A stretch of 64,000 nucleotides of DNA from Pigmentiphaga sp. NML080357 (GTDB lineage Bacteria > Pseudomonadota > Gammaproteobacteria > Burkholderiales > Burkholderiaceae_B), in contig NZ_NINW01000037.1 of assembly GCF_002188465.1 (NCBI RefSeq), forward strand, positions 186,001 through 250,000, in the 5' to 3' direction. Positions 12,119 to 57,403 of this stretch are shown here, piece by piece. Below the pieces are notes generated by a model. It was not told the DNA's origin, ran no database searches, and saw nothing but the letters and a program-made list of their open reading frames with translations. Every line of letters starts with the position of its first letter. The first letter of the stretch is position 1. A program made the position numbers and the translations under genes.

Positions 12119-13768
12119 TCACTCCGTCACGCACTCGAAACTGGCCGCGTCATTGACGGGGCCAGCGCCCTTGTACCTCGGCCATCCCGGGAACAGGCAC
12201 ATCGGCCTGGTGCGCGACGCGCCCGGGTTGGCGTCGATGGCCGTCAACACGCCTGGCGCGGTTCCCTGCTCCACCCAGCCGGTCAGCGCCCCCAGGGCAT
12301 CGTAGGTCGCGTTGAACGGCCCGAAGCCGTGGCCCAGGCCGGGAACGATGTAGAACCGTGCGAATCCGTCCACGGCGGCCTGGCCCTTCTGCGCCACCAG
12401 CTTGCGGTAGTAGACGACGGAATTGTGCGGGGTGATGAAATCGTCGGCGGTACCGTGGATCATGATCAGCTTGCCGCCCTTCTTCATGAACGGCCCGAGA
12501 TCCACGTCGGACACGTCCATGATGCCGCCCACTTCCTTGATCCGCGTGGCGTATGCCTTGGGATCGAGCGTCATCGGGTCGAAGTTGACGTCGCGGGTGA
12601 TGATGTACTTCGTGGTGGCGGCGCCGACCGAATAGAGCAGCGCCTCCTTGCCCGACAGCGGATTGGAAGGCTGGGGCACGCTGCCGTAGGAAGACACGTT
12701 GAACAGCGCGCCCTCCAGGATGGGCCAGCGCTCGAATCGCGTCATGCCGGCGATCTCGACGCCCGGCTCGTAGGGCGAAGCAATGGTTTCCACGCCGCTG
12801 ATCTGCGCGTCGGACAGGCAGGTATCGCCCGTGTCCCCGCCCCCGGGGCACCGGAGCGTACGGCGGACGCCGGCAATGCCGAAGGCCGCATCGCAGCCGG
12901 CCACGTCGCTGATGATGCCGTCTTTCGTGCCGTCCAGCGGATCGCATGCCGCATAGACCGCGTCGGTCAGCAGCTTGACCTTGGCGGCGTTCATCCAGTT
13001 GGCGCCGCCGTTGCCGTACATGGCGCGGCCCGCGTTCAGCGATCCCAGGTGCAGCATGGTCACGTTGTACGCAGGATAGTTCGACACGACGCCGTCGTAG
13101 TCCTCGGGATAGCGGGCCGCCGCGTCGAGCGCCTCGTGGCCGCCCTGCGAGGCCCCGATGAAATAGAAGCGCTCGGGCGCCACGCCATAGCGCGCCTTGA
13201 TCAGCGCCATCGCGACGTCGTGCGTCTTCTTGATGGACAACTGGCCGAAGTTCATCAATGCTTCGGCATTCAACGCGAACGACGCGTCGAACCCCGCACT
13301 GGACTTGTGCCCCCCGTCGCTGCCGAGCGTCACGTAACCCTGCGCCAGGGGAGCCTGGGATTCGGCCGGCTGCAGGGGATATTTGCCCAGTCCGGTGACC
13401 AGCGTACCGTTGAAGGCGCCGCCGCCCAGCTGCAGCGCCCGCTTGTTCCAGTTGGTGGGCAGGTTGACCTGGAACTCCAGGTTGGGCGCGGCAGGATCCA
13501 CGGGCATGACGATGCCCCGCACCGCGCAATACTCGCCGTTGGCGTTGCCTTGCGCGTCCGCCTTGACCAAAACGGCCGACTGCACGACCGCGCCCGAAGA
13601 AGGTTTGCCGATTTCGGCCTTGGAGATCATCCTGCCGTTCAGGTCGCTGCAGGACTGCTCGGCGGACGGCCCGGGAGGCGGCGGGTTCGGGGCCGGGTCG
13701 TCGCTGCCGCCGCAGGCGGCCAACGCAGCGAGCAGGAATGCCGGAAACGGGGCGCGACGAATCTCCAT
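12119..13768 (-). CDS. Tannase/feruloyl esterase-like lipoprotein
   Basis: 549 residues. Lipoprotein signal with lipobox LAAC (Cys19), then a Pro-rich spacer and an alpha/beta-hydrolase domain of the tannase/feruloyl esterase family: RALQLGGGAFNG, nucleophile motif FIGASQGGHEALDAAARYPEDYDG (S207), Asp in HGTADDFITP and His in PGLGHGFG. The family's hallmark Cys residues next to Ser and His (CS-D-HC) are replaced by Ala and Gly, so the usual disulfide between them is absent. Start ATG 13768 has GGAGGAG; a much longer open frame upstream is spurious. Last gene after exoprotein 1 and a sigma factor; it may act on a cell-surface or environmental ester (inference). Confidence 0.8.
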   Translation of the reverse strand: MEIRRAPFPAFLLAALAACGGSDDPAPNPPPPGPSAEQSCSDLNGRMISKAEIGKPSSGAVVQSAVLVKADAQGNANGEYCAVRGIVMPVDPAAPNLEFQVNLPTNWNKRALQLGGGAFNGTLVTGLGKYPLQPAESQAPLAQGYVTLGSDGGHKSSAGFDASFALNAEALMNFGQLSIKKTHDVAMALIKARYGVAPERFYFIGASQGGHEALDAAARYPEDYDGVVSNYPAYNVTMLHLGSLNAGRAMYGNGGANWMNAAKVKLLTDAVYAACDPLDGTKDGIISDVAGCDAAFGIAGVRRTLRCPGGGDTGDTCLSDAQISGVETIASPYEPGVEIAGMTRFERWPILEGALFNVSSYGSVPQPSNPLSGKEALLYSVGAATTKYIITRDVNFDPMTLDPKAYATRIKEVGGIMDVSDVDLGPFMKKGGKLIMIHGTADDFITPHNSVVYYRKLVAQKGQAAVDGFARFYIVPGLGHGFGPFNATYDALGALTGWVEQGTAPGVLTAIDANPGASRTRPMCLFPGWPRYKGAGPVNDAASFECVTE

Positions 13769-13889
13769 GATGTCTCCTCCGGGTGCGGGATTCTTGTCGT
13801 TCTCGCGCGCGTCGGCCGACACACGGCCATCGCGCGTGCATGGCGCCAACCATGCCCCAAATCGTTCACAAAGTAAACTAAAAAAAGCC

Positions 13890-14483
13890 CTACCAATAAG
13901 AAACGGATTGCTCGCGGCGCCCCGCCGGTGCCTCGGGCGCCGCCTCCATTTCGGTTGCGCATCGGCGTATTGCCTGGCGCAAGGCGGTGTCGACGTTGCG
14001 CAGCGACAACCCATGGCGCGCCGCCACTTCCCTGCGCGGCGACTCGTCGACGCACAGCGCGAACAGGATCGTCTGGTGCCGCCCCGGCAGGCGCCGGTAG
14101 GCCCGGTCCAAGGCCCGGACCGATGCGCGCGCGGCGGCGATGCGCTCGGGTCCCGGCGCATCATCCTGGATACCGTCGAGCGCATCGGCGTCCTCCCGTG
14201 ACCGGAGCGTCCGGCTGGCGCGCACCAGGTCGACGGCGGCATTGCACGCGACACGGAACACGTAACCTTCGGGGTTCTCCGGCTCTCGTACCAGCACGGC
14301 CCCGCCCAGCCGCAGCCAGGCCTCGTGCAGGCTCTCGCTGGCCAGGTCCGGGCAACCGAGCTGCCGGGTAAGGCGTTTGTGCAAGCCGGCATAGTTCCCG
14401 GCAAGGACATCCTGCAAGCGGCCGTGGCGGCCAGCCACGGCCGCCTTCAAGGCCGAAGCCTCCGAGCGGTCCGGAAAGCTCAT
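13890..14483 (-). CDS. ECF-type RNA polymerase sigma factor (third of the locus)
   Basis: 197 residues resembling FecI-like ECF sigma factors: region 2 (LASESLHEAWLRLGG, YVFRVACNAAVDLVRAS) and region 4 (RRLPGRHQTILFALCVDE, VAARHGLSLRNVDTALRQ). Its ATG 14483 lies 5 bases beyond the stop of giant exoprotein 1, and its ribosome binding site GTAGG overlaps that stop codon, so it is probably translated by coupling. No anti-sigma gene follows; the next gene, 121 bases on, encodes the tannase-like lipoprotein. Region 2 is somewhat degenerate compared with the two VreI-like factors in the window. Target unknown. Confidence 0.8.
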   Translation of the reverse strand: MSFPDRSEASALKAAVAGRHGRLQDVLAGNYAGLHKRLTRQLGCPDLASESLHEAWLRLGGAVLVREPENPEGYVFRVACNAAVDLVRASRTLRSREDADALDGIQDDAPGPERIAAARASVRALDRAYRRLPGRHQTILFALCVDESPRREVAARHGLSLRNVDTALRQAIRRCATEMEAAPEAPAGRREQSVSYW

Positions 14484-14488
14484 GTCGC

Positions 14489-17400
14489 CTACCTTTCCTG
14501 CATCAGCTGGTGCCGCTCGGCGGGCGTGAGACGGGCAAGCTGGCCGGCGTCGAAGTGCCGGCCAGCCCCGACGATCTGGATGTAGCTGGCCGGATCGCTG
14601 CCTCGCGCGCTGGTGGCGGGCTCATCGCCCATGGCTCCTTCCTGCCTGTCCGTGGCCGGAGCCGGTTCGCTGCCGAAGCCGAGTACCCTGACGGTGAACA
14701 CGGAGGGCAGGCTGTTGCGGGCGGCCTTGCGCTCCTGCTGCAACACCTCCTGCGCGGCGGCCGCGGCCTGCGACGCCGCGGCGCTGGCGGCAGTCAGCGC
14801 GCCCACGTTGACCGCCGCCACGGCGGGCAATCCGGTGACCTTGCCCTTTACCTGGATGTTCTCGGCATTGAGCACGTAGAGCGCGGCCACGTTCAGATTG
14901 CCCGCCACCCGTATGCCCGCGTCCCCGGCATTGACCGTTCCCACCGGAGCGACCAGGTCCACGTCGCCATCGCCCACGGTCCCGATGCCGCTGCCGCTCA
15001 TGTCGGAGCGCTCGCGCATTTCCGTGTTGCCGTCCTCGTCGGTCACGATGTCCGCCGACGAAGGCACCCTCACGGTCTTCGCGCCCCGCCCGGCGTCGAT
15101 GTCGCCCAGGGTGGACCAGACGATCTGGTCGCTGCCCTCGCGCGTGGCGGCGGGGACGAACGACAGGAGGCGCGAGCGGTTGACGGTCACATCGTCGCGG
15201 GCAAACACGTTGATGTGCCCCGAAGCCAACGTCACCAATCCATGACCCGGCGGAACAGTGGCGCCGAGCGCGGCGAGCTGCAAACCGCCTCCCGGCGTCA
15301 GCACGCTGATGTCGCCGCCGGCCATGGTGCGCAGCATCAGGTTGTTGGCGGCGATGTCTCCGCGCCAGCCGTCGCCGGGGAACAACGCCTCGATGGCCGC
15401 GTAGCCGCGGTTGTAGCCGCCGTTGCGCGGCAAGCCGTTCTCGCCGGGAAAATTCTGGTCGCGGCCGGCGTCGCGCAGCTCCAGGAGCAGCACCTGCCGC
15501 AGGAACTGTTGCCGGACCAGGGCCGGCAATTCCTGAAAACGCTCCCAGGCCGCGAGCGGAGCCAGCTCCTCGCCCGTCATCGCCTTCACGTAGGAAACCA
15601 GGCCCCGCCGGGTGGTCTTGCTCGTGCCGTCTTCGCGCGCCTCGGTGCCATCCGTCAGGTACAGCGGCAGTACCGTGCCGTCGGCCGCCGTCTGCGTCAG
15701 GTAGGACGGCATGCCGGCGACCTGGCCGGGGTTCAGGTAGGCATCGGCGAAGGCGTCGTAGGCCACATCCCCGTTGATGCCCGCCAGCGCGCTGATGCTC
15801 GCGCCTTGCGCGGGCAGGCCGCGTATGACCGCGTTGTTCAAGGGCCGGTTGTTGTCGTCGTAGCGGCCGACATTGCCGAGCGTCATAGCGCGCAGCTTGT
15901 TGGCATAGATGTCGCGGCCGGCCGACAGCACGAGCGCGCCCGGGCCCTGGACCTCGATGTGGTTGAAGTATTCCGATAGCGGCGTCCCCACTTCCAGGAT
16001 GTCGTTGCCGGCTTCCAGCAAGGTCACGTCCGACGGACGCAGGTTGCGCGCCAGCACGTGCAAGCCGCGGATGTCGCGGCCGGCGCGCACCCAGGTCTGC
16101 TCGCTGGCGATCAGGTTCAACCCGTCGATCGAGCCGCCGGCATAGATGCGGCTGGGGGCGTGGTCGTTCGCCAGGGGCAAGACTTCGGGGTTGGCCACGC
16201 TGTTGAAATAGGCGCTGCCCAATGGCAAGGAGGCAGTGCCGATCTCGTTGCGCAGCAGCGTCGCCATCCCGGTGATCAGATGCTCTTCGAACCCCACCGG
16301 CATCGCCGGAGAAGGAATCATTTCCGGCGTGGCGTAGGCCATGTACAGGCCCGGCTCGGCCAGCTGCAGGCGGTAGCCGTCGCGCGCATAGCGCAATGCG
16401 TCCGGCCTGCCGAAGCGCAGATCGGCCTGCGCCGCCAGCGTCACGTCGTTGTCGGTCGAGGGCATGACGTACAGCGGTCCCTGGATTTCCACACCGCCGT
16501 TCATGGCGACGATCTTCAATTGCGCGGGGTAGAGATTGCCGCCATACCCGATGAGATTGTCCTGATCCGTGGTATGGCTTTCCAGCGTGACGTCGCGGAA
16601 TGCGTAGTCGGCCTGGTTGACCAGCGAAATGCTGCCGCCCACCGAAACGAGATCCAGCGCGGTCGCGCCGGTGTAGCCGCTCATGTAGGCGCCACGGACG
16701 ATCTGCGGCAGGTCGCCGCTGCCGTCGCTACCGTAGCGCACCATCAAAGGGTCGACGACGGACTGGACCTGCAGGTTGCCCTGGGTGCGCACGCTCAAGG
16801 TCGCGTCGCCTACGGCGAGGATGGGCGAAAGCGGGAACACGTAGTCCCGGCCCCCGTCCCAGTCGGCAATGGTGACGGTGACCTCGTGCCCTGTGCCGGT
16901 TTCGCCCGCGCGGATGCGGCCGACGCCACGCGCCACGTAGTATTGCCCGCCGAGGATCGCGCCGCCCGCCTCGACCGTCAGCGCGCCGCCGTTGCGCGTC
17001 TCCATGACTCGCGCTTCGGTGGCGCTGCGGCCGCCGCGCATGCGCATGTTGGTCGGCAGCGCCACCACCAGGTTGGAGAGATCGCCGCCTGCATGGACCG
17101 ACACGTTTCCGCCGCCAAGCGCGCCCACGCCCTGCTGGAACATGCCATAGTCGATCCACCAGCTCGACTGCTCGGCCGGCCGCCGGATGGGTCCGTAGCT
17201 GCCGTCGGGCAGTTCGCCGTACTCGCCGCCGAGATAGTCGCCGAAATAGTGGTCCGCGTTGACGGCGCCCTGCCGGTTCAGCCATTGGACGAAACGCTGG
17301 CCGGATGGCTGGGCGGAGATTGCGCCCTGGGCGACGATATCGAGGTGTCCGCCTTCTACCCCATAGACCGCATCGGCCCGCGCCGTCGTGAAATCGTCCC

Positions 17401-20400
17401 AGGTCGTCGGGTCGCGCCGCCCGGCGGTGTAGATCACGGACTCCTCGTGGGCAAGCCTGACGTCGCGGCCGGCGCGCACCGACAGATCGCCCGTGCCGGT
17501 GCGAACCAGTTTTCCGGCGCCATTGTCTTCCTCGCCGGGATCGGTGTCGGCCCTGCCGACGATGATGGAACCCTGGTTCTCGGCGATGGCGGCATGAGGA
17601 CGCAGCGCCAGTCGGTCGGCGGCGGACAGGTCCGCGCCCGCGGCCAGGTTGAGGTTCCAGCCTTGAGTGTCTTGCAGCGCGCCGGTGCGGTCCGCACGGT
17701 CGAACCCATCGCTCAGATGGCCGCCGATGATCAGGTTTCCGGCCGCGCGCAAGGTCAGGCTGCCGCCACGGGAAGCGGCAAGGTCCTCGAACAGGTTCCA
17801 GTCCGCCGCCAGGGCGAGATCGCCGTCGGCGACGATTTCTATGCCGGCGGCGACGCTCCAGCCCGGTGCCGTGCCCAGGCGCCCGGCGATGGCATCCCGG
17901 CGTGCCGCGAACGCGTTGGCCTCGTCGACCGCGGCCTGCCTGACCGCATCGACGGAATCGCTTTCGTACGTCCGAGTCCCCTCGACCACGGCCGACCTCG
18001 CGCCGGCGATGCGCGTCGCGAGCCGGTCCATGGCCAGGTCGAGGTTATTCTCCGTACGCTGCGCGCGGACGAGGATCCTGCCGCCTTCTCCACCACTCAC
18101 GTCGATCGATCCGCCCGCCAGGTCGAGCCTGCCGCCGGCCGCGTCCAGCGTGACGCGGCCGCTGCCGATGGCGGCCGTGGCGCCGGCCAGCAACTCCGCT
18201 CCGTCGCTCATGGAGACGCCGCCACCGCCGACGATGCGGATGGAACCGCCGTAGGCCGCGCGCGCGTCGATCCTGCCGGCAATGTTCACATGTCCGCGAT
18301 CGGCGGCCACGAGCAGCCGTTCCACGGTCGTGCCGCCATCCACCGTCACGTCGCCGGTGCGTATGCGGAACTCGCGCGCGTACAGGAAGCCCGCGTCATT
18401 CAGGCGGGCGTTGAAGCCGGCGAAATCCGGCAGGGCGTCGATGTCCAGGCTCAATGATCCGGGCAGGCCGCCTTCGCCCGCATGCGCGCGGACGTCTCCC
18501 TCCAGCAGCACGCGGCCGCCGTTGCCCGCGGCCAGCGCCAGCGTGCCGGCGCTGCCGCCCCCGGCCTGGGCGGACAGGTTCAGCCGGCTGCCCGCCTCGA
18601 TCCGTACGCTCCCATCGACCGCGGTCAGTTCGACCCTGCCCGCGTCCCCGTACTCGGACAGGTCGTAGAACTGTCTGGCAAAGCCGCCCACGTCCACGAT
18701 ACTGCTCTGCTCGAGCGTGATGTCGCCGCCGACGGCCGTCACCGCGATGGTGCCGCCCAAGGCCGCGATCCGGCCGCCCACGCGTACGCTGCCGCCGGTC
18801 AATGCGAGACGCGCACCCAGGCTGTCGTGCGGCGCGGCTTCCTGGCCGGGCCCGTTGGCATCTCCGCTGGCCAGCACGTCGAGCACCCCGGTGGTCCGCA
18901 GCGCGAGACTGGCCGCACTGCCGCCGGTAAGGAGCGGCGTGCGCAGCGTCAGCGCAGCCGCGCCGGCGTCGAGCTCGCCCTGCCCTTGCCCGATGATGCG
19001 ATCGGCGGCTTCCAGCGCCACCGTGCCGAAGCCCGAAATGCGCTTCTTGCCTTCGTCGAGGACGATCGTGTCGGCGGCCAGGATCAGACTCCCGGCGCCG
19101 CCCCCGGCGGGACCGTGCTCCTGGCCGCTGTTGAGCAAGATGACGGTGGCGCCCCGCACCGTCACATCCTGGTCGCCGTAGCCGGCCCATTCTCCTCCAT
19201 CGAATATCACCGCGCGCAGGCCCGCTGCCTGCAGGTCGGCGGATTGGTGGAAATCGAAGCTCGAATAGCTGCGTAGCGTGAGCGACTCGGTCCGGGACAA
19301 CTGCGCCAGCGCCGCCGCATCCAGCAGCAGCCCCTCGCCATCGCCACCGAAGCCTATGCGCCCCGACGCCACAGAAAGGTCGCGCCCGCCCAGCACCGCC
19401 GAACTGGCCATGTCGGTCGTGCGCGTCGCGTCGATCAGGAGCGCGCCGGAACCCTCTACCCGCGCCCGTTCGCCGATGCGCACCTGGCCGCCGCGCGTGG
19501 TATCGACGCTGTGCCTCACGACACGCGCGGCATCGCCGGCCGCGACGCGCAGCAGCGTGCCCCAATCCCGCTCCGGCACGATGAGCGTATCGTCCGCGGG
19601 ATCGTCGGGCGTGCCGCTGTCGTTGTACTCGGCCGCCTGCTGCGGCGCCACGATCAGGTCGCTCGCGGCGGCCGGGGTGCCGCTGGCCTCCACCACGCTG
19701 CCGGCGTCGATACTGAGCAGCTCGCTGGCCGCCAGGATGATCTCCGGCCCCGCCAGCACCGAGCCGGCGTCGTTGCGAACGACGATATTGCTGGCCGTCA
19801 CGTCGAGCGCAAGGCCAAGGGGGTCGCCGCGGCGGGTGCCGCCGATCAGCACGCTGCCGGCGCCAAAGCCGCTCAAATCCTGCGCATCGATCAGCAGGAA
19901 GCCCGCGTCGATGAGATCCGCGGGGTCCTGGCCGGCGCCCACGATGGCGATTTTCTCGCCCGTGATATCGAGCAACCCGCCTCGCCCCTGCTCGCCGGGC
20001 TGCGAATGCAACCGGCCATCGAGCGTCAGCGAGCGTCCCGCGCTGAACACCGCGGCGCCGCCGTCGCGCGGCAGGCGGGGCGTCACGATATTCTGGCCGG
20101 TCAGGCGGTACTGGGTGAGTTTGAAGGCGTCCGACGAAAAGAAGTCGTTGGCCATCGCCTCGTTGTATTCGGTATAGCGCCGTACGATGTCGCCCGACAG
20201 CACCCGCCATGCCGAAGCCTGGGCATCCTGCGTCTCGCCGTAGCCATTGCCGCGGCGTCCCTGCATGACCAGGCTTCCGTCGGCCGCTTGCGTCGCTCCC
20301 GCCGCGATGCCGGTCCAGGTCTTGTCGGTGGGCTGGACCGCAAAAGCGCCGGGCAGCAGCGCATAGCGTGCGGGCAGCAAGGCATACCAGCCCGCCGCGA

Positions 20401-25851: not shown

Positions 25852-26922
25852 TCAACTCAGGATGACGACCCCGCCCGGCAGCGTGCGCGCGTTGAGCGCG
25901 AAGGAGTGCTGGATCTGCAGCAAGACGGCCTCTAGGTCCCTGGTGGAGAAGCGGCCACTGACCTTGTTGTCGCTCATCTCTTTGGCCATCAGCACCACGC
26001 GTCCGGCGCGATAGCGGTTGATCTCCTCGATCACCTCGGCGAGCCGGGCCTGCCTGAACACCAGCATGCCTCGCCGCCACGCCGAGGCATCTTCCGGCAC
26101 CGCGGGCTGCGTCCCGCCCAGCCCCCGCTCGCCATAGGCGAGCTGCTGCCGCGCATGCAAGGTTCGCACACCGGCGGGATGCTCGATCCGGACGCTGCCG
26201 TCGATGCACGTCACGGAAACCGTGTCCGCAACGCACTTGACCTGGAAATGGGCCGCACGGGCGATGCTCCGGCCGGATCCGGCCAGCACCACGAAAGGTG
26301 CCGGGGTTTCCGGCAGGTCGATGGCCGCCTCGCCCTGGATCAGCTCGATGCCGACGTCCCTGCCATCGGCCACCTGCCGGCGTACCCGGGTGCGGGTATT
26401 CAGCTCCACGTCGACACCGTCGGCGACGACGATGCGCTGGCGCTCGCCGGGACCGGTGCCGAAATCGGCATCCCAATCAGCGATGGCCGGCCACAGGCCG
26501 AACGGCGGATGAACCGCCGCAACGGCCACCACGGCCGCGGCGCCCGCCGCCGCCCCGATGAAGGCGCGGCGTTGCTGCCTGCGGTCGGCCTGGACCGCCC
26601 GCCGGTGCGCACCGGCCACGGCGGGGTCGCCGGCCAGCAGGCTGCCGATGGCCGGCCCCAACAGCCGCCACTCCCGCCTGGCTTCGTCGAACGCCGCGCC
26701 ATGCCGGTCGCTCGCCGCCCGCCAGCGGTTGAACGACATGGCGTCCCATTGGCTGACCTTGCCGGACGCGAACAACCGCAGCCATGCCCGGGCCTCGCGC
26801 CGCAGCGATTCATCCAGCGCATGGCCATGGTCGTGGGTAGGCGGCGTGTTCATGGTGTCGACCTGCTCGGGTTCGTGATGAAAAGACGTTCCCGAACGGC
26901 CGGATTCCCAATCTTTTTTCAT
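25852..26922 (-). CDS. FecR-like anti-sigma factor (VreR-like), module 1
   Basis: 356-residue inner-membrane sigma regulator. N-terminal cytosolic DUF4880-type helices (EARAWLRLFASGKVSQWD, about 42-60), one membrane helix near 120-143, periplasmic FecR domain (about 165-260) and a C-terminal STN-like segment (LAEVIEEINRYRAGRVV, then VSGRFSTRDLEAVLLQIQ). The helix is preceded by RQQRRAFIG, which looks like a twin-arginine signal. Start ATG 26922 overlaps the sigma stop as ATGA, with GGGAGAAG upstream, showing translational coupling. It should hold the adjacent sigma until the periplasmic VreA-like protein signals. Confidence 0.88.
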   Translation of the reverse strand: MKKDWESGRSGTSFHHEPEQVDTMNTPPTHDHGHALDESLRREARAWLRLFASGKVSQWDAMSFNRWRAASDRHGAAFDEARREWRLLGPAIGSLLAGDPAVAGAHRRAVQADRRQQRRAFIGAAAGAAAVVAVAAVHPPFGLWPAIADWDADFGTGPGERQRIVVADGVDVELNTRTRVRRQVADGRDVGIELIQGEAAIDLPETPAPFVVLAGSGRSIARAAHFQVKCVADTVSVTCIDGSVRIEHPAGVRTLHARQQLAYGERGLGGTQPAVPEDASAWRRGMLVFRQARLAEVIEEINRYRAGRVVLMAKEMSDNKVSGRFSTRDLEAVLLQIQHSFALNARTLPGGVVILS

Positions 26923-27440
26923 CGCTTCTCCCGGCCAATGCGCGCCATGCACAAGTCCTGGGCTTTCTTGAGCTCGTATTCGACCGCGCGTACCGAGATG
27001 CCCAGCCGGCGGGCGACCTCCACCTGGGGCAAACCTTCCCAGCGCACCAGCACGAGCACTTGCCGGCATCGCTCGGGCATGCGCTGGACGGCCTTGAGCA
27101 AGGCCTCGACCTGGGCACGGTCCTCGGCGGTTTGTACCGGTCCGGGCGCGGGATCGGGCAATTCGGCCAGTGCCTCGATTTCCTCCGCCGAGAGCATCCG
27201 GGTCTGGCTGCGTTGGGCATCGACGGCGATGTTGACCGCCATGCGCAGCAGATAGGAGTATGGCCTGGCAACCATGCCTCCGCGATCGTCCTGCGCCTGC
27301 AGCCGCAGCCAGGTATCCTGCAACGCGTCCCCCGCCAGCTCGGCATTGCCCAGCCTGCGGGTCAGCTGGCGCTTGAGGTCGTTGTAGCGTTCCACCAGCA
27401 ACGATCTGAGCAGCGGTCGTGCGTCGTCTTTCTGCGCCAT
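26919..27440 (-). CDS. FecI-like ECF sigma factor (VreI-like), module 1
   Basis: 173 residues: region 2 (RRLGNAELAGDALQDTWLRL, PYSYLLRMAVNIAVDAQRS) and region 4 (MPERCRQVLVLVRWEGLPQV, ARRLGISVRAVEYELKKAQD). The PDPAPGP linker is shared with the paralogue at 53.1 kb. It directs RNA polymerase to genes of a cell-surface signalling regulon, probably including the exoprotein gene downstream. It starts 1 base after the STN protein's stop and overlaps the FecR-like gene by 4 bases, so all three are made together. Confidence 0.9.
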   Translation of the reverse strand: MAQKDDARPLLRSLLVERYNDLKRQLTRRLGNAELAGDALQDTWLRLQAQDDRGGMVARPYSYLLRMAVNIAVDAQRSQTRMLSAEEIEALAELPDPAPGPVQTAEDRAQVEALLKAVQRMPERCRQVLVLVRWEGLPQVEVARRLGISVRAVEYELKKAQDLCMARIGREKR

Positions 27441-27441
27441 G

Positions 27442-35751: not shown

Positions 35752-35806
35752 GGAAGACTCTCCGAAGACTTGTCTGGAAGACATGAATAGAAGCTAGTGG
35801 CGTTGA

Positions 35807-47200: not shown

Positions 47201-50200
47201 CGAAGCCACCCGCCTGGACGCGGTCCGCGCCGAGTCGGCCATGGCCGTAGACCAGCCCCGGATCGGCCCGGCCCGGACGCACGTCGGCCGCCAGGCCTTC
47301 CGGCGCCTGTTCCTTCACCAATTGCAGTTCGCGGTGCACCAGCACGCGATCGGACGGATTGCCCGCATCCCTATAGGCGGGCGCTTCCAGCGCCAGCGAC
47401 AGCGTGCCGCCGGCGGCGCCGGCGCCGCCCGCCGCGGCTTGCATGTCGCCATCGAGATAGAGGCCGTTGAAACTGGCCAGATGGATCACGCCGCCGTCGG
47501 AAGCCAGCCGCGTCTCGCCCAGGCCGGGCAAATCCAGCGTCGCGGCGGCGCCTGACGCGTCCAGGCGCGCGCCGGGACGGATGACGACGAAATTGTCGAC
47601 GGCATCGGCCTTGGTGGCGTAGGCCTGGTACTTGCCGCCGATCTCGATACGCCCGCCGTCCAACACCACGCCGTAACGGCGCCCCTGGACATCCACTGCC
47701 GAGTGGGCAGAGCCCGCCACGTCGAGCACGGCCTTGCTCCCTATCCAGATCGATCCGTCGTGGCCCTTCAAGTGGCCGGCGTTCTCGGTGCCAAAACCCA
47801 GGCCATACACGCCGATGCGGCCGCCGGCAGCGCGCAGCTCGCCATCGATATTGATCTGGCCGTTGCCGTTCAAGACGATGCCGTGCCCCGGATCGACTTC
47901 GACACGGGCACCTTCGCCGATGGCGAGCGTGGGCGTCTCGCCGCCTTCGACCATGCTGCGCGCATCTCCGGCGGTCAGCACCAGATCGGCCCCGCCGCGC
48001 TGCGTCAGCCGGCCTTTGCGGGCATCCTCGGCGAACAGCGGCGCCAGCCGCCGTTCCAGCGCCGCTTGCGGATCGGCCCCCGTGGCCACGTCGCGCGCCA
48101 CGGAAAGATCCGCCTGCAGGACCGGCATCGTCGCGCGCAGGTTGGCGCCCGCGGCCACGGCCAGGCCATTGCCGCCCGTCACCTCGTAGCGCGAGAAACC
48201 CTGCTGGAAGCGCGCGGCGTCCAGATGCAGCAAGGACTCGACCGCCACCGCATACGGCAGGGACGAACCGGCGCGGACCAGCGTGCCGGCGGCATAGGTC
48301 AATTCGCTGGCCGCGACGGTGCCGGCCTTGATCACGCCCGGCGTCGGAGCGATCGGCATGCCGTTCGGCAGGATGGCGGCATCCACGACGTAATTGAGGG
48401 GGAAATTCACCGGGTTCACGATTGACGTGATGACCGTGCCGGCCGGCAGCGTCGGCGGCGTGCTCCAGCTATAGCCGTCGACCGTCAGGTACTGGCCATT
48501 GGAAAGCGTCACGCTGTAGCTGACGTTCTCGCTGGCCGCCTTCGGCAGCGTCCAGGCGGCGCCCAGCGTGACCCAGCTTGCCGGATTGCCGGCAACGATC
48601 CGCGGCGCCCCGCCGACCGCCTCGCCCGGGTTGGCGTGCGTGCGGACGTAGTGATAGTCCACCGGCAGCACCGCGCCTTCGGCGACGGTGAAAGCCTCGC
48701 TGGTAATCAGATCGACCAGCGAAGTCTCGCCCGCCCGCAGGACGCCGTCGCTGCCGGCGACCTGGCCGCCGACGATCACCGCATTGCCCGTTTGCAGGGT
48801 CAGCGTGCCGCCGCCCTTGACGCCGTGGCCGCGCAGCTCGCCTTCCAGCACCAATTTGCCCTTGGGCCCGCCGGCTGCCGAGTAGGCGTCTGCGACCAGC
48901 GCGATGTCGCCGCCCTTGCCGCCGCGCAGGCTGTCATCGGCCATCAGCGCCGCGCCCGATGAAACGTCGAGCAGCGCGCCCGCGCCCACCAGCACGTCGC
49001 CGCTGCTGCGTACGTCGATACGGCCGCCGTCGACGTACGGCAGGCCGCCGATGTCGGCGCCGTCGCGCAGCAGATTGCTCCACAGGCCGCGCGCGTCCAG
49101 CGTCACGCCGTCGCCGATGGCGACGCGCGCCACATAGCCTGCCGGCACGGCCGTCGTCAGCGGAAGCTGCTGCCAACCCGTGCTGGCGCTGACGTGCCGG
49201 TCGACCATATTTCCCAGGACAATGGCGCCGCCGCGCGCCGTCAGATCGGCATTGACGTCGACCTGCGCGGCGTGCAAGGCGATCTCCCCGCCAGGGGCGA
49301 CCGCGAGCGACTCGGCGACCTCGATCCCGCCCTTGGCGTAGACCCGCAGTCCGCCGAGCTCCAGCGCGTTGAGCCAGGCCGCCTCGAGCGCGATGTCTCC
49401 GGCCCCGGCGCCGCCTATCTTTACCGAGTCGACCACGGCGCCCGGGCTGTAGCGCAGGTCGCCGCGGTCGGCGTCGTAGACCGGCGTCCAGGTGCCGATG
49501 ACCAGCTCGCCGTTGCGCGCGACGGCCGTCTGCGCCTGGCGGTAGCCGTCCAGGCCCGCCTCGCGCGCCCGCTGTTGCCGCTCGCCCTGGTAGGTGCTGG
49601 TCTCGACGTCGCCTTGCAGCGTCGCCGCGCTCGTCGCCACCACCAGGCGGCCGCCGTCGCGGCCGACGGTATAGCCGTTCTCCAGGCGCCGCAGCGGCGC
49701 GATGATCGGGTTGTAGAAACTCTCCTTGGCCGTGTCGCCCCAGCGCGCCGGATCCGTTTCGAAACCGCGGTACAGGCCCGTGTACAGCAGGTCGCCCGGC
49801 GCCGTCGAGGCGTTGTACAGGCGGCCGTCCGAGCCCTTCAACCAGGTCTGCGCCACGTAGCCCGTCTGCACGTCCAGGGCGCCGCCCGACAGATTGATCA
49901 GCGACCCCTGGCGCGTCAGCAGGTTGCCGCCGCTGAACTGCACCGTGCCGCCCTGCGCCGACCACTCGCCGATGCCGTGCCCGGTAATGCCGAGATAGCC
50001 GCCTACTTCCAGCAGGCCGCCCGCCGTATACCAGCGATCGGTTTCGTAGCCGTTGGTGCCAGCCGGCACCAGGACCAGGTCGCGGCGGTCGAGCCAGATA
50101 TCGCTGTTGCGCAGCTTGTCGCCGTCGCGGTTGACCGAGGCGTCGCGCTGCTCGAAGCCCTGCACATTGACCAGGACATTGTTCGCTTCCATCGCCACGC

Positions 50201-51773: not shown

Positions 51774-51936
51774 CGTTTCCTGTCGCCGGGCGGAAACGCG
51801 GGACGAAGCGATAGGCTTGGCGGGCACGGACATATCGGGTCGGATCCTAGACAGATGAATCAGCTCGGGCGCGCAAGCCGCGCACCCCTATGTCCGTATA
51901 GACGCAGCCCGGAAAAAAGGTGGAACAGAAAACCCC

Positions 51937-51954
51937 ATGAATTTTTGGTGACAG
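51937..51954. promoter_or_regulatory. PHO-box-like direct repeat upstream of exoprotein 2
   Basis: On the minus strand: CTGTCAC, CAAA, AATTCAT, the best match of the set (first repeat identical to the consensus CTGTCAY), about 165 bases before the exoprotein ATG. Confidence 0.65.
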
Positions 51955-52047: not shown

Positions 52048-53004
52048 CTACCCCAGCATCACGACATTCGCTACGCGGCGGACATGGACGGCATAGAGCT
52101 GCCGGATGAGATCGATGGCCTGGTCGGTGTCGTTGATGGCGAAGCGGCCACTGATGCGCTGGCGGGCCAGCCGGTCGTTCATCAGGATCACGCGGCCGCT
52201 GCGGTAACGGTTGATCTCGGCCACGGCATCGACCAGCGGCGTGTCGTTGAAGACGATGTACCCCTGGCGCCAATCCGAGGGCGCGGCGCCTGTGTTGCGC
52301 ACGGCGGCGGATGTGTGCCCCGTACCGTACGAGGCCGACTCGCTGGCCTCCAAGGTCAGGATGCCGTCGGCATGGTACAGCTCGGCCTGACCTTCCGTGC
52401 AGAGGACGCGGGTTTCTTCGTTGTCCAGATGTCTGATCTCGACGCACCCCGCCGCGAGCTGGATGCGGCCCGAGCCGGCCTGGATCTCCAGCGGCGCCTG
52501 GCCGTCGTTGCGGATCTCGGCTTCGCCGGCGATCAGTTCGACCCGCAGGGGGTCGGCCCGCCGGACCGACAGGCTGGTCTGGGTATTCAGCAGCAGCTGT
52601 ATATGCGCATTCAACGCCACGCTGAGCTGCTCGCCCACGGCCGTGCGATAGTCGGCCCCCATCTCGGACCAGGACGGCCACAGCCCCAAGGGCGGATTCA
52701 CCATGCCCACCACGCCCGCGGCGGTGGCGACCGCGGCGCCGACGAACCACCTGCGGCTTGGCGAGACCGGCCGCGCCACCTGCGCTGCCGGAATCCGTTG
52801 CCGGACCGTCTGCAGGACCTCGCCCATTTCGCGCCATTCCGCGCTCGCCCGCCGCCACATCTGCGCATGCGTGGCGCTCTGTGCGCACCAGCGGCGCAGC
52901 GCCTCGGCATCGGCGGCGGTCGGACGGCCGACAGCCAGCCGCCGCGCCCATGCCCGCGCCTGCTGCAACACGATGTCGGCGCCGTCCGCACCGGGATCGT
53001 TCAT
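52048..53004 (-). CDS. FecR-like anti-sigma factor (VreR-like), module 2
   Basis: 318 residues from ATG 53004 (AGGAG 5 bases upstream; ATG 53043 is possible). DUF4880-type N-terminus (VLQQARAWARRLAVGRPTAA), membrane helix near 87-108 preceded by a Tat-like SPSRRWFVGA, FecR periplasmic domain, and a C-terminal STN-like part (DAVAEINRYRSGRVILMND, then ISGRFAINDTDQAIDLIRQ). The NPPLGLWPSW motif after the helix parallels HPPFGLWPAI in the module 1 protein. It should sequester the sigma factor encoded just upstream; the exoprotein 2 gene follows after a repeat-bearing gap. Confidence 0.88.
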   Translation of the reverse strand: MNDPGADGADIVLQQARAWARRLAVGRPTAADAEALRRWCAQSATHAQMWRRASAEWREMGEVLQTVRQRIPAAQVARPVSPSRRWFVGAAVATAAGVVGMVNPPLGLWPSWSEMGADYRTAVGEQLSVALNAHIQLLLNTQTSLSVRRADPLRVELIAGEAEIRNDGQAPLEIQAGSGRIQLAAGCVEIRHLDNEETRVLCTEGQAELYHADGILTLEASESASYGTGHTSAAVRNTGAAPSDWRQGYIVFNDTPLVDAVAEINRYRSGRVILMNDRLARQRISGRFAINDTDQAIDLIRQLYAVHVRRVANVVMLG

Positions 53005-53062
53005 AGGTTCTCCTGCCATCATGCCGTGGAGCCGGGTATCCATGTCCTGTTTTTCCTTCTTC

Positions 53063-53659
53063 TTATAGACGTTCCGCAACACGGACGTGCGCACGCTTTT
53101 TCGGGGAATCTGACAATTTGTTGCCATCTTTCCCAGCGCCGCCGGCAATAGCGTCCACCGCTTCCATGTGACGCGCGCAGAATTCGTGCGCGGCCTGCAG
53201 CTCCCTGCTGATCAGCCGCGTGGAGACGCCCCATCGCTGGGCCAGCTCCTTCAGCGTCAAGCCGTCGACCCGCGCGGAGTAGAGAATGTCGCGCTGCCGG
53301 GCGGGCAAGGCGGCCAGGGCATCGACGGCCCGGGTCAGGTCGAAGCGCGCCTGCACCACGTGCGACGGACCGGGCGCGGGATCGGCCAGTTCGTACAAGT
53401 CTGCCACCTCATCGGCACTCAGGTAGCGCTGGGTGCCGCGCAACCGGTCGATGGCAGCGTTGACGGCGGTATGCAGCAGATAAGCCTGGGGATGCCGCAC
53501 CTCGTTCAAGCCTTCACGGTCCGCCAACTGCACATAGGCGTCGTGCAGCGCTTCGCCAGCCAGTTCCGCCGAGCCCAGGCGCCGGACCAGCTGCGCCTTG
53601 AGCGTTTCATAGCGCTCGGTAAACAGCCGCTTCAATTCGGCCAGGCCGCTGCCCGTCAT
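53063..53659 (-). CDS. FecI-like ECF sigma factor (VreI-like), module 2
   Basis: 198 residues: region 2 (RRLGSAELAGEALHDAYVQL, AYLLHTAVNAAIDRLRG), the ADPAPGP linker shared with module 1, and region 4 (LPARQRDILYSARVDGLTLK, ELAQRWGVSTRLISRELQAA). Longer C-terminal tail than the module 1 factor. ATG 53659 overlaps the STN protein stop as ATGA. It probably transcribes exoprotein 2 and perhaps tpsB; cross-talk with the module 1 sigma is an open question. Confidence 0.9.
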   Translation of the reverse strand: MTGSGLAELKRLFTERYETLKAQLVRRLGSAELAGEALHDAYVQLADREGLNEVRHPQAYLLHTAVNAAIDRLRGTQRYLSADEVADLYELADPAPGPSHVVQARFDLTRAVDALAALPARQRDILYSARVDGLTLKELAQRWGVSTRLISRELQAAHEFCARHMEAVDAIAGGAGKDGNKLSDSPKKRAHVRVAERL

Positions 53660-54357
53660 GACGCGCAAGCCTTCAGGCGGCCGGTCTGAGGCGTCACCAG
53701 CAGCACGATGGGCTGGACGAGTGCGGGCGGCGGCTCGATGCCCAGCTGCGCCCCCTCCAGGCGGGCTTCGATGCGCGGCTCGAGGTCGGCATGGCCCTGC
53801 GCGGCGGCCCTGACCCGATGCAGCGCTCCGGTACCGCTGACATAGGCGCTGATAGCCAGCCGGTACTGGCCGACAGCCAACCCGGCGTCGACGCAGAGAA
53901 TACTGGTGGCCACGCGCTGCACCCGACCGTAGAACGCGGCGTGGGCAGCGGTCCCGCCATCGCCTTCCGCGGCGGGGTACGCCGCGAGCTCGACCGGCAC
54001 GATCACGAATGCGCCGGACGACGCGAACCGCGCCCGCATCCCGGTCCCCTGCAGCAAGGTGTCCAAGGCCTCATCGGGATCCAGGGGCTCGCGGATCGCC
54101 GTCGATCTCAACCCGGCCACCTGGCCGGCATCGTAGAGAACCGAGCGGCCGGTCGCCAGGCTGTAGGCCTGCAGCGCGTCGTGCAAGGGCAGGCTGTCGA
54201 TGGCGAACGATGCAGGCTCGCTCCTGGCCGCCACGCCGGCTTCGCGCGCGGGCGCCGACGCGGCGGCCACGTTGCAGAAGCCGCAGCAGAACGGCCCCAG
54301 GATCCAGGCGCACAACATCATGCGCACACGAAGCAGGTGCGAACGACGAGCGGACAA
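53656..54357 (-). CDS. Free-standing STN plus TonB-C-like periplasmic signalling protein (VreA-like), module 2
   Basis: About 233 residues. STN domain (about 50-120: FAIDSLPLHDALQAYSLATG, RSVLYDAGQVAGL, ALDTLLQGTGM), a linker, and a TonB-CTD-like domain (141-223: AFYGRVQRVATSIL, YRLAISAYVSGTGALHRVR, PALVQPIVLLV). Same architecture and almost the same length as the module 1 protein, with low overall identity. Start uncertain: TTG 54357 gives a charged n-region before the hydrophobic MMLCAWILGPFCCGFC; ATG 54321 lacks it and TTG 54438 adds 27 residues. None has a good ribosome binding site. Confidence 0.8.
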   Translation of the reverse strand: MSARRSHLLRVRMMLCAWILGPFCCGFCNVAAASAPAREAGVAARSEPASFAIDSLPLHDALQAYSLATGRSVLYDAGQVAGLRSTAIREPLDPDEALDTLLQGTGMRARFASSGAFVIVPVELAAYPAAEGDGGTAAHAAFYGRVQRVATSILCVDAGLAVGQYRLAISAYVSGTGALHRVRAAAQGHADLEPRIEARLEGAQLGIEPPPALVQPIVLLVTPQTGRLKACAS

Positions 54358-54708
54358 GCGGGCGACGGCAGGCAGGACATTCCACCCCAAACGCGGCAGT
54401 TCTTCATGGACCGCACGGCTGGACCGGGCGTGCGGCAAGGCCGCCGCATCGTAGCCCGCGGGCGTGACAGCCGGATTACATCCGCGTTACCGCCCGCGCC
54501 GCACCGACCGGCCCGCCGCCGCGATCCGGCGCGGCGACGAGCCTATCCCCAAGGTACGGACCAGGTTCGCAAACCCGCGCACCAGTTCCCATAGTCCTGC
54601 TGCCATCATTCCCCGGCGCTCGGCCCGTGGCCATTGAAGTATGGACGGATGGCGGTGCCGCGAACTGCAGCGATCCTGACAAACAAGTTGTATCCTTTTG
54701 TGCCGGCG
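54358..54708. other. Gap between HtrA gene and module 2
   Basis: About 350 bases with no credible gene. On the minus strand there is a TTGTTTGTCAGG sequence near 54690 (possible -35 or half a PHO box) and a GGTTTGCGAACC near-palindrome at about 54564-54575. I found no full PHO-box-like repeat here. Confidence 0.45.
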
Positions 54709-56118
54709 CTACCGCGCATCCCGGGATGCCGCGCCGGGAAGCTCCAGCGCGACGAATATCCTGGTCCCCCGGCGCTGCACCAGCAGCGCCGCGGATCCTT
54801 CGGCTTCGGTCACCGCCTCGGCCAATGCGGCCAACGATCCAACGGGCTGTCCGTTGACGGCCAGGATGACGTCGCCGATTTTCATCCCCGCGCGCGCGGC
54901 AGCAGCGTTGACCCGCTGCACCAGCAATCCGGCCTCGACGCGCAGGACCTGGAGCTCCTGCGGCAGCAGCGGACGCACGACCAGGCCCAGCGGGGTGGCG
55001 GGATCGGATGCGGCCGCGGCCGGGCGGGACGGAACTTCGAAACGATCGATGGGGACGTCCATCGCCACGCGCTCCCGATCGCGCCAGACGGCCATCGTCG
55101 CCGTCTGGCCCGGCGGCAGCTCCGCGACGAAAATCAGCGCGTCGGCCGACTGCTTCACCGCTCGCCCCCGCACTTCGAGAATCACGTCCCCCGGCCGCAA
55201 GCCGGCCCGGTCCGCGCCGCCCCCGGGCTCCACGTAGCTGATCAGGGCGCCGGCGGGCTGCGGCAGCCGGAACGAATGGGCCAATGCCTGGCTCACCTCC
55301 TGGACCGCCACCCCGATACGGCCACGCGTGATGCTGCTGCCCGCCTGCAATTGCTGCTTGATGCGCATGGCCACATCGATCGGAATGGCAAAGGACAGAC
55401 CCTGGTATCCGCCGTTGTTGCTGTAGATGCGCGAATTGATGCCGATGACCTCGCCCCGCAGGTTGAATAGCGGGCCGCCGGAATTGCCGGGATTGACGGG
55501 CACGTCCGTTTGCAGGAATGGCATGTACTCGGCGCCCGGGAGAACCCTGCCCTTGGCGCTGATGATGCCCGCGGTGGCCGATTGGCTGAAGCCGTAAGGC
55601 GCCCCGATGGCCAGCACCCAGTCGCCCACGTCGGCCCGGTCCGGATCGCCGATCGCCACCACCGGCAGCCCGGACGCCTCGATCTTGAGCAGGGCCACGT
55701 CGGCCACGGGGTCCAGGCCGATCAATTGCGCCTTGAATTCCCGGCGATCCGCCAGCCGCACGCTGATGTCCCTGCCCTGCGCCACCACGTGGGCATTGGT
55801 GAGGATGTAGCCGTCTGCGCCGACGATGAAACCCGAGCCCAGGCTGCGTTCGTCGACCTGGTCGCGGCGGGGCAGCCGGCCTTGCCGCCTTCCCGTCGCC
55901 GGGTCGATCGCGGCGGTTGGCGATGCGCCATCGCGCACCACGCCGATATTTACCACGGCGGGCCCGTAGGTCTTCACCAAGGCCGAGAAATCGGCGGCCG
56001 GCAGCCACGTGGCGGGCGGCATGTTGGCGCAGGCCGATACCGCGAGCATCGCCGCCAGCAGCGCGTGCCGCAGCAAAGGAAGGCGACCGCCTGCGCCCGG
56101 GCTAGGTTTTCGCCACAA
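54709..56118 (-). CDS. HtrA/DegP-type serine protease, probable lipoprotein
   Basis: 469 residues from TTG 56118; lipobox LAVSAC near residue 30. Trypsin-like domain with catalytic His (YILTNAHVVAQG), Asp (DPVADVALLKIEA) and Ser (NPGNSGGPLFNL), followed by two PDZ domains (IGVAVQEVSQALAHSFRLPQ to about 380, and LRVEAGLLVQRVNAAAARAG to the end). Such proteases degrade or process periplasmic proteins; in Bordetella, DegP helps FhaB quality control. Overlaps the TonB-C-like gene by 17 bases, so co-translated. The unusual start codon makes the N-terminus uncertain; a start nearer the lipobox is possible. Confidence 0.88.
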   Translation of the reverse strand: MWRKPSPGAGGRLPLLRHALLAAMLAVSACANMPPATWLPAADFSALVKTYGPAVVNIGVVRDGASPTAAIDPATGRRQGRLPRRDQVDERSLGSGFIVGADGYILTNAHVVAQGRDISVRLADRREFKAQLIGLDPVADVALLKIEASGLPVVAIGDPDRADVGDWVLAIGAPYGFSQSATAGIISAKGRVLPGAEYMPFLQTDVPVNPGNSGGPLFNLRGEVIGINSRIYSNNGGYQGLSFAIPIDVAMRIKQQLQAGSSITRGRIGVAVQEVSQALAHSFRLPQPAGALISYVEPGGGADRAGLRPGDVILEVRGRAVKQSADALIFVAELPPGQTATMAVWRDRERVAMDVPIDRFEVPSRPAAAASDPATPLGLVVRPLLPQELQVLRVEAGLLVQRVNAAAARAGMKIGDVILAVNGQPVGSLAALAEAVTEAEGSAALLVQRRGTRIFVALELPGAASRDAR

Positions 56119-56599
56119 AGCTGAGTTCCAGCTGCAGCACCATGGGCTGGCGCATATCGCGAGGCGGCGGCTCGGACAATGCCTGCGAGGTCAGCAGGGC
56201 GCGCAGGTCCTCATCGGCTTGCTGCTGGCCCAGCGACGCGAATTCCAGCCGTTCCACCTTGCCGCCCTCGCCTACCCAGACCCGCACGATCAGCGGCGCG
56301 GGCGGCGCGGCCTGCCCTTCCTGCAGCATCCTGTCCTGCATCCAGGCATGCAGCCGCTGCACGGTTTCGTTCTCCGGATCGCTCAGCCATGCCTGGAACT
56401 GGTTGCTGGCCAGTTGCGCATAGCTGATCCAGTGCTGCGGCACGGGCTGCGCAGGCGCCTGGGCGGCCGCGGGAGCGCTGGCCGCCGCGGTCAGGCCCAG
56501 GCCGAGGGCGCCGGCGACGCGCGCGATGCGCTCCCAGGCGCGGCGAATGAACGGGCTGCCGCTGGAGCGCGTAAAGGATGGGTTCGAGGTCTTTGCCAT
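56102..56599 (-). CDS. TonB-C-like periplasmic protein
   Basis: 165 residues from ATG 56599: signal or membrane helix (about 24-48, IARVAGALGLGLTAAASAPA), a helical segment (FQAWLSDPENETVQRLHAWM) and a C-terminal TonB-CTD-like domain (PLIVRVWVGEGGKVERLEFA, SEPPPRDMRQPMVLQLELSF). It resembles the C-terminal half of the VreA-like proteins but without an STN domain. Between a trypsin-like protease and HtrA in one operon. Possible link between proteolysis and the signalling proteins (inference). Confidence 0.7.
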   Translation of the reverse strand: MAKTSNPSFTRSSGSPFIRRAWERIARVAGALGLGLTAAASAPAAAQAPAQPVPQHWISYAQLASNQFQAWLSDPENETVQRLHAWMQDRMLQEGQAAPPAPLIVRVWVGEGGKVERLEFASLGQQQADEDLRALLTSQALSEPPPRDMRQPMVLQLELSFVAKT

Positions 56600-56632
56600 G
56601 ATAGAGGTCACGCGTTGAGGACGACTCCGCAT

Positions 56633-57403
56633 CTAGCCGCACAAGATCCCCACGGCCAGCGTCGCGGCGCGGGCGGCGGGCGACTGGTTCGGCGCCAGCT
56701 GCGGCGTGTCGCTTTCGGTAAAGGAGATGCCGCTGTCGCGGAGGAATTGTTTGACCGGTTCGGCTGCGACGGCGCGAACCTGGGACGGCCCGGACACCAT
56801 GGCTGCGCTGGACGCGCGGCTGAGCACGACGCCCGCGGCGCCGGGGCCCCGCGCCACCCGCTCCACGACCACGCCGGCAACCAGGCCATCGGCGTGCAAT
56901 ACGGCGCTGCCGCTGGTTCCCGGCTTGACGCCCGAAATCAGGTTCAGGTCATCGCCTCCCGGCACGGTCATGGCATTGCTCAGCACGCTGGCACGGTGCG
57001 GCATGCGTTGCAATACGCTGTAGGCCTCGGCGAAGACGCCCATGCTGCTGCCGCCGGATTGCGCCTTGGCCGGAAAGGTCGCGCTCAGGTAAGGGATCAG
57101 TTCCGTGCCGAGTACGGCCAGGTCGTGCGCATTGCTGACCGCGCGCACCCGGGCCTGCGCCACCTTGCCGTCCTTGACGACGAAGACGTCCTTGCAATGA
57201 TCGACCGCATGACGGGCCGTCAGCACGTCTCCCTGTTGATTGAGGAAGACGCCGGTGGCATGGGTATCCGCCCCGATGGAAAGCCGGGGCGGCTCGGCCC
57301 GCGAAGCACATGGCATGGCGACGGCGCAGGCTCCCGCGGCAATGGCGGCCGCCGCCCGGCGCATCGTGTTCGCCATCGATATCGCACGATGGCCTCTCGC
57401 CAT
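56633..57403 (-). CDS. Secreted trypsin-like serine protease
   Basis: 256 residues from ATG 57403 (or 247 from ATG 57376). Signal peptide around RRAAAAIAAGACAVAMPCAS, then a chymotrypsin-fold domain with His (DVLTARHAVDHCKDV), Asp (SNAHDLAVLG) and Ser (GVKPGTSGSAVLHADG) in the usual order and spacing. No PDZ domain. It heads an operon with the TonB-C-like and HtrA genes; a PHO-box-like repeat lies 120 bases upstream. May process secreted or periplasmic proteins of the neighbouring TPS system (inference). Confidence 0.83.
   Translation of the reverse strand: MARGHRAISMANTMRRAAAAIAAGACAVAMPCASRAEPPRLSIGADTHATGVFLNQQGDVLTARHAVDHCKDVFVVKDGKVAQARVRAVSNAHDLAVLGTELIPYLSATFPAKAQSGGSSMGVFAEAYSVLQRMPHRASVLSNAMTVPGGDDLNLISGVKPGTSGSAVLHADGLVAGVVVERVARGPGAAGVVLSRASSAAMVSGPSQVRAVAAEPVKQFLRDSGISFTESDTPQLAPNQSPAARAATLAVGILCG

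Follow-up and report, generated by a model that had tools for sequence, protein, structure and literature searches.

Why would a genome carry several giant exoproteins, each with regulators of its own, and one machine to export them? The question is raised by a 64,000-nucleotide stretch of Pigmentiphaga sp. NML080357 (positions 186,001 to 250,000 of contig NZ_NINW01000037.1, part of C12 in a genome of 5.73 Mb; C-, L-, and G-numbers are our labels for contigs, loci, and genomes), hereafter the window, in which two giant two-partner secretion (TPS) exoprotein genes and two sets of signaling genes accompany a single operon for the exporter TpsB and an ExbB-ExbD-TonB energizer. From sequence comparison, and with a probability of about 0.64, we propose that this locus is a multi-cassette form of PUMA3/Vre-controlled TPS: one dedicated export machine would serve several separately regulated giant DUF3739 exoproteins, would be opened by phosphate starvation, and would possibly be coupled to the proton motive force.

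All genes of the system lie on the minus strand, and every gene that the original prediction named was found there, at the positions given below. In the order of transcription, the first stretch encodes a trypsin-like protease, a TonB-C-like protein, HtrA, VreA2, sigma 2, FecR 2, and TpsA2; the middle stretch encodes TpsB, DUF2341-LamG-ExbB, ExbD, TonB, a Porin_5 protein, a coiled-coil protein, PpiC, a YbjN protein, and a 92-amino-acid protein; and the last stretch encodes VreA1, sigma 1, FecR 1, TpsA1, a further extracytoplasmic function (ECF) sigma factor, and a tannase-family lipoprotein. TPS exoproteins beside a ShlB/POTRA transporter place the locus within two-partner (type Vb) secretion. 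The exoproteins are TpsA1 (positions 14489 to 25765, 3758 amino acids; TPS domain PF05860, E 6.1e-20; DUF3739 PF12545, E 2.3e-32) and TpsA2 (38229 to 51833, 4534 amino acids; E 6.4e-21 and 2.6e-39 for the same domains). The machine opens with TpsB (35807 to 37459, its likely start; PF03865, E 2e-22; PF08479, E 1e-13) and continues with an ExbB bearing a DUF2341 plus LamG extension (33958 to 35784; PF10102, PF13385, and PF01618), ExbD (33533 to 33943; PF02472, E 8.2e-29), TonB (32806 to 33522; TIGR01352, 30.0 bits against a cutoff of 27.1, with PF13103 below cutoff), and the Porin_5 outer membrane protein (30923 to 32809; PF16930, E 9.8e-197).

The imbalance between machine and exoproteins recurs well beyond this strain. 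Among 200 genomes of the family, DUF3739 was found in 25 and DUF2341 in 24, all 24 lying within the 25 (Fisher p 4e-30, kinship of the genomes ignored); the remaining genome, G117, owes its DUF3739 match to a broken frame of 199 amino acids. DUF2341 was single in 24 of 24 of these genomes, and DUF3739 matches numbered 1 to 13, with fragments making up part of them in G044, G061, and G138, three genomes in which several exoprotein or VreA places are broken or interrupted and in which cassettes may also decay. Across 398 genomes of the phylum, 13 had both domains, 384 had neither, none had DUF2341 only, and one (G528) had DUF3739 only, its matches lying less than 4 kb from the low ends of contigs C24 and C32; among the 13 genomes with both, G399 had two DUF2341 matches. 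We also drew on 80 named loci, the best 80 of 480 relatives in the collection. In a subset of them DUF3739 was present in 45 of 45 genomes, again with 1 to 13 matches, and the 13 of Bordetella ansorpii SMC-8986T occupy contig places identical to those in G068. Judged by these domain matches, co-occurrence of DUF3739 exoproteins with the LamG-ExbB machine is near-obligate. It had been suggested that independence of the modules from the exb-type operon would tell against a common system; cassettes do often lie far from the operon, yet they nearly always lie in genomes that have one, G117 and G528 being the exceptions. The genome of the window follows the pattern: it has exactly three TPS-domain matches, all in its three giant proteins, one DUF2341 match, and two ShlB matches. 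The third giant protein belongs to another VreA-sigma-FecR-TpsA cassette of the same order on contig C11, where neither DUF2341 nor ShlB is matched.

The machine itself is a stable unit. The core order TpsB-ExbB-ExbD-TonB-Porin-coiled coil is shared by 73 of the 80 named loci, all from other genomes, and the layout is therefore not due to chance; six of the other seven loci end before the operon does, and L137 differs only by the order of open-frame starts. For the ExbB extension, the closest named relatives among the best matches are Burkholderiales metagenome-assembled genome 67-32 and Alcaligenaceae bacterium SAGV5 (both 90% identity) and Pigmentiphaga sp. NML030171 (87%). The operon is also present on plasmids: on one of Klebsiella quasipneumoniae, typed as conjugative, it is complete and is accompanied by a VreA-type trio and by two genes whose products are annotated as members of the filamentous hemagglutinin family, and on a linear Klebsiella pneumoniae plasmid record the operon is annotated from ExbB onward, close to the record start. 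On these Klebsiella plasmids, L245 (pKqq_SB98_1) and L244 (pMagicconchshell_02), which carry the system or its Exb half, a LysR regulator ends the operon. In G176, a genome with 11 exoproteins, the sole machine ExbB (L046, contig C1) is split over two overlapping frames, either an assembly error or a real break.

Each exoprotein of the window stands behind a trio of genes for VreA, an ECF sigma factor, and a FecR-type regulator. The first trio comprises VreA1 (27442 to 28140), a secreted STN signaling domain joined to a TonB/TolA-like C-domain, sigma 1 (26919 to 27440; PF08281, E 2.2e-13; PF04542, E 1.1e-7), and FecR 1 (25852 to 26853, its likely start; PF04773 and PF16220, with PF16344 below cutoff). 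The second comprises VreA2 (53656 to 54321, its likely start; STN PF07660, E 4.1e-9; 234 bits to the VreA profile), sigma 2 (53063 to 53659; PF07638, E 7.7e-9; PF04545 and PF08281), and FecR 2 (52048 to 53043; PF04773, E 3.4e-8; PF16220). Sequence comparison finds the VreA C-domain homologous to the C-domain of the machine TonB; two cysteines of VreA are invariant. Within the 20 kb fetched, a trio adjoins 12 of 13 giant exoproteins in G068 and 9 of 11 in G176, one of them divergently. The number of full-length VreA genes tracks the number of exoproteins (Spearman 0.97) and equals it in 22 of 28 genomes with the system, counting VreA places of at least 100 bits, a split place once, and DUF3739 matches of at least 90 bits. 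In four genomes without the system, the VreA profile reached 63 and 66 bits at best in receptor-sized frames (G073 and G096), gave a weak match in G001, and found none in G002. Within genomes, the distances among VreA, sigma, and FecR correlate with one another (Mantel r 0.56 to 0.77, p at most 0.0015; 12 cassettes of G068, 9 of G176); in the same genomes, those of the trio genes and the exoproteins do not (r -0.26 to 0.17, p at least 0.08). The trio is thus inherited as a unit, and the exoproteins are exchanged or diverge independently of it. A trio and a lone VreA on contig C6 of G176 (L240, L241) have no exoprotein directly adjoining in the stretch fetched.

A second type of sigma gene (13890 to 14483; Sigma70_r4_2 PF08281, E 1.6e-6) starts 6 bases 3' of the TpsA1 stop and has no adjoining anti-sigma gene in the window. 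Such genes form a kind of their own: of 53 cassette sigma genes, the 15 that directly follow tpsA fall on one side of a branch and the 38 trio sigmas, which precede fecR, on the other (support 95/92, recovered in 92% of bootstrap trees, with a midpoint root only). The clade has members in five genomes besides the one studied here, so that this extra sigma, first taken for a peculiarity of the lineage, is more widespread. It may be made only after transcription has run through the whole of tpsA.

The affinity to PUMA3/Vre put forward in the original prediction has held up, P. aeruginosa being compared through published descriptions. VreA is made up of two domains, as described for that species, namely an FpvA-like signaling domain plus a TolA/TonB-like domain, and has no barrel (in the portion of PMC2729926 that describes it); the order vreA-vreI-vreR recurs in both window modules and in the C11 module; the genes are linked to tpsA, tpsB, exbB, and exbD; and Pseudomonas otitidis has a VreA of the family (210.7 bits), the trio, one DUF3739 exoprotein, and the operon. 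Set beside PUMA3 of P. aeruginosa PAO1, with pdtA and the phdA-pdtB-exbB2D2-tonB4-PA0696-PA0701 operon, as portions of PMC2729926 and PMC4971064 present it, the likeness takes in the TpsA, TpsB, ExbB, ExbD, TonB, and PpiC genes and probably the promoter layout of a Pho box plus an ECF element. Unlike that system as presented there, the one studied here has several cassettes per machine, often unlinked, and a second sigma after tpsA; the window further has a trypsin/TonB-C/HtrA operon under the same promoter type and a tannase, and its parts are not separated by Hxc type II genes. TonB-dependent cell surface signaling of the FecA/FpvA-FecR-FecI kind has the STN domain, FecR-type regulator, and ECF sigma in common with it, but VreA has neither barrel nor plug, and its second domain resembles TonB, the energizer. 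DUF2341 on an Exb/Tol-type subunit has a counterpart in the DUF2341-bearing generic ion transporter A subunits presented in part of PMC12505986, from whose main text the word "two-partner" is absent. The label "VreARI" is already in use in database annotation, according to part of PMC10977779.

A promoter block may link the machine to phosphate. Upstream of tpsB (37590 to 37643, minus strand), a Pho-box-like repeat is followed by an ECF-type -10 element, CGTCTA; the block could be aligned across 68 of 78 loci, the window included, the other 10 falling below the score cut, and its consensus reads ATGAA-n-TTTTcgTGACA, 25 bases, CGTCT. The first half reversed, TTGTCACGAAAACTTCAT, resembles the Pho box consensus. 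If CGTCT is set near -10, the repeats lie at about -38 to -53. At P. aeruginosa pdtA, a pho box at -40 to -56 and -35 and -10 elements are all required (part of PMC4971064), a layout known to us by described positions rather than letters, to which the spacing of the block in the 68 loci is similar. With the window and its three nearest relatives left out of the training set, a position weight matrix found two sites in the 64 kb, the tpsB site (62.0) and one with the same block and spacing before the trypsin gene (57489 to 57542, minus strand; 34.7); the third site scored -13.2, and among 40 shuffled windows the highest score was 2.5. The block before the trypsin gene is also present in G190 and G068. 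In whole genomes, the pattern with at most 3 mismatches was found in 17 of 19 with the system (16 of 19 at 2 mismatches) and in none of 7 without it. Before tpsA2, a Pho-box-like element (51936 to 51954, minus strand) scored 23.3, above the 99% control level of 16.2, with CGTCTA about 30 bases downstream. Measured against random windows of the same loci, such a box before tpsA passed the 95% level in 24 of 48 dereplicated regions and the 99% level in 12 of 48; before vreA, 29 of 52 related cassettes passed the former and 3 of 52 the latter.

The block turned up in other places as well. Additional copies precede related membrane-type proteins of 168 to 177 amino acids with no Pfam family (L257:2982, L258:2612, and L260:6081), and copies within the operon itself, close to where the coiled-coil gene begins (L174:15071, L175:15511, and L239:16486), look as if the operon were two units. 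A 46-base stretch with 3 mismatches to the pattern is near-identical across genera (L259:1724, in G000 C10, and seven other genomes), and a two-mismatch block in the window's own genome (L256:5731, in G000 C20) has no obvious gene directly behind it.

These features can be arranged into a working model. Phosphate starvation, through PhoB plus an ECF sigma, would open the machine and protease promoters, and the sigma of each trio would add its own exoprotein. All exoproteins would cross the outer membrane via the single TpsB with the help of PpiC; HtrA, trypsin, and PpiC would handle the exoprotein in the periplasm, where the proteases may clear stuck chains. ExbB-ExbD-TonB would act on TpsB or the porin and provide energy for export, release, or surface display, and VreA would compete for the TonB docking site, sense exporter occupancy, and hand its STN domain to FecR.

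Several observations weigh against this model. The full matrix built on the machine promoter is not transferable to the tpsA promoters; the Pho-like box before tpsA1 is borderline (6.6), and there is none before the C11 genes; the window vreA genes have no clear box either (-1.5 for vreA1 and 0.8 for vreA2, against a 95% control level of 5.5), a point of difference from PUMA3. The block before the trypsin gene is present in just 2 of the 6 named loci having that gene (L179 and L180), and the pattern in reverse, used as a control, had matches in 5 of 26 genomes; both findings slightly lower our confidence in the proposal. Some exoproteins, in G068 and G176, are without an adjoining trio. At the level of the order, 46 of 399 genomes have a DUF3739 match (45 above cutoff), and in 43 of the 46 it is the only one; expansion is therefore a trait of some lineages, and multi-copy genomes are a minority. 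Deletion of vreA in phosphate-starved P. aeruginosa left the activity of the pdtA and machine promoters unchanged (part of PMC4971064), and a sensing role of VreA is thus unproven in that species. Finally, TPS, like type V export in general, is described as proceeding without an energy source (part of PMC5422565).

The transmembrane aspartate of ExbD and the transmembrane threonines of ExbB are energizer residues. Both are kept: the aspartate of VDVL in ExbD is conserved, and in the window plus the 80 named loci T519 of ExbB is found in 80 of 81 rows and T552 in 78. ExbB and TolQ proteins, E. coli ExbB for example, usually carry a glutamate in the third transmembrane segment; at that position the machine ExbBs have alanine in 78 of 81 rows and a gap in 3 (E. 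coli ExbB being the only comparison), which also counts against the model and suggests that the motor may differ. A strong form of the model, in which TPS is driven by the proton motive force, the ExbB-ExbD-TonB motor works on TpsB, and VreAs at the same docking site report occupancy to cassette-specific sigmas, letting a cell choose which of up to 13 exoproteins to display via one shared gate, strikes us as rather unlikely.

The alternative that survives best, a possible one if on the unlikely side, is that the Exb/TonB/Porin_5 part serves uptake rather than export: the exoproteins would capture a nutrient, for instance a phosphorus source, which the porin or another receptor would then import. 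The Porin_5 gene within the operon and the Pho-like promoter would suit it, and there is a precedent in HxuCBA of Haemophilus influenzae, where a TPS exoprotein gene likewise adjoins a TonB-linked gene and HxuA works with HxuC in uptake (part of PMC5422565). HxuC, however, is a TonB-dependent receptor, whereas here TonB, ExbB, and ExbD sit in the tpsB operon, and no full-size receptor gene of that kind was found in the window operon or in the annotated operons of two Klebsiella plasmids; the sole gene named as a receptor on those plasmids encodes a VreA-type protein of 235 amino acids. A single TpsB-bearing machine alongside as many as 13 exoproteins is at least equally in keeping with an exporter.

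In another alternative, each giant exoprotein uses whichever TpsB the cell has, and the operon TpsB serves its neighbor only. Speaking for this, and adding to the points against our proposal, 23 of the 24 family genomes with the system have 2 to 5 ShlB matches. G105, however, has one ShlB match in its whole genome alongside no fewer than three intact giant exoproteins and a broken one, and the second ShlB of the window genome (on C7) scores just 57 bits to the TpsB profile, with no frame longer than 798 amino acids within 19 kb around it. We consider a free choice of exporters improbable.

The exoproteins themselves speak to what is being exported. When 14 giant paralogs were aligned, the N- and C-terminal parts were the most conserved and the stretch after DUF3739 was less so (0.47); conserved termini would fit one exporter handling all of them. 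TPS architecture and giant size might suggest polymorphic interbacterial toxins of the contact-dependent inhibition type, but a conserved DUF3739 C-terminal region, even with its looser last stretch, the sigma gene rather than a small immunity-like gene directly 3' of tpsA1, and the lack of any Pfam toxin domain at E 0.001 make this very improbable; the mark of contact-dependent inhibition, a variable toxic C terminus paired with an immunity gene, was not seen in these comparisons. As for the origin of the two modules, described in the original prediction as two copies, the phrase is right for gene order and wrong if it means recent duplication: between the trios, identity is 30% for VreA, 38% for sigma, and 31% for FecR, the exoproteins are 39% identical over the N-part and 55% over the C-part, and among the cassettes compared sigma 1 is 84% identical to one in G190 and sigma 2 69% to one in G068. 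The idea that tandem duplication recently produced the two modules within the lineage, for which the matching gene order would speak, deserves next to no credence, given trios that are merely 30 to 38% identical, distances that already refute it, nearer relatives of each trio in other genomes, and trio sigmas on separate branches of the sigma tree.

The remaining genes of the locus (all minus strand) are conserved to different degrees. The operon continues with a coiled-coil protein of about 220 amino acids from its likely start (30214 to 30876; signal-like leader, no family above cutoff, in 74 of the 80 named loci), the PpiC-type peptidyl-prolyl isomerase (29176 to 30183; PF00639, E 8.4e-22; in 41), the YbjN-domain protein (28597 to 29124; PF10722, E 4.1e-10; in 73), and the 92-amino-acid protein (28273 to 28551; no Pfam match, homologs in 21). 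Upstream of vreA2 lie the trypsin-like protease (56633 to 57403; signal-like leader; PF13365, E 4e-9), a TonB-C-domain-like protein without STN (56102 to 56632; signal-like leader, 78 bits to the VreA profile, no Pfam or NCBIfam match), and a Do/HtrA-family protease with two PDZ domains (54709 to 56118; TIGR02037, 422.6 bits against a cutoff of 416.2); frame 54476 to 56008 is spurious, the real gene there being HtrA. At the other end is the tannase/feruloyl-esterase family lipoprotein (12119 to 13768; PF07519, E 6.3e-117), 549 amino acids from an inferred start with a lipoprotein-type leader; its reading frame, 12119 to 14410, is too long, and because the upstream part overlaps the sigma gene we place the likely start at the M at 13768. 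The protease cassette, the tannase, and the multi-module layout had all been thought specific to this lineage, which was borne out for none of them. Near the operon, TonB-C genes are present in 13, trypsin genes in 6, and HtrA genes in 4 of the 80 named loci, in Herbaspirillum, Bordetella, Cupriavidus, and others; a tannase lies near the system in one Variovorax as well as in Pigmentiphaga-type genomes (2 of the 80 loci, plus L096 and L100); and other genomes hold 1 to 13 exoprotein copies.

The single-cassette system is already known in P. aeruginosa. By title and abstract, no description of the multi-cassette form or of a test of energy coupling was found among the matches listed from the open-license literature, nor was one of the regulatory design that it implies, in which many separately switched giant surface proteins would depend on a single dedicated exporter. 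VreA gains a concrete hypothesis, that of a TonB-like probe fused to a signaling domain. That a whole class of giant exoproteins is almost never found apart from an ExbB-ExbD-TonB set of its own makes the question of energy in type V secretion one that can be tested by gene deletion.

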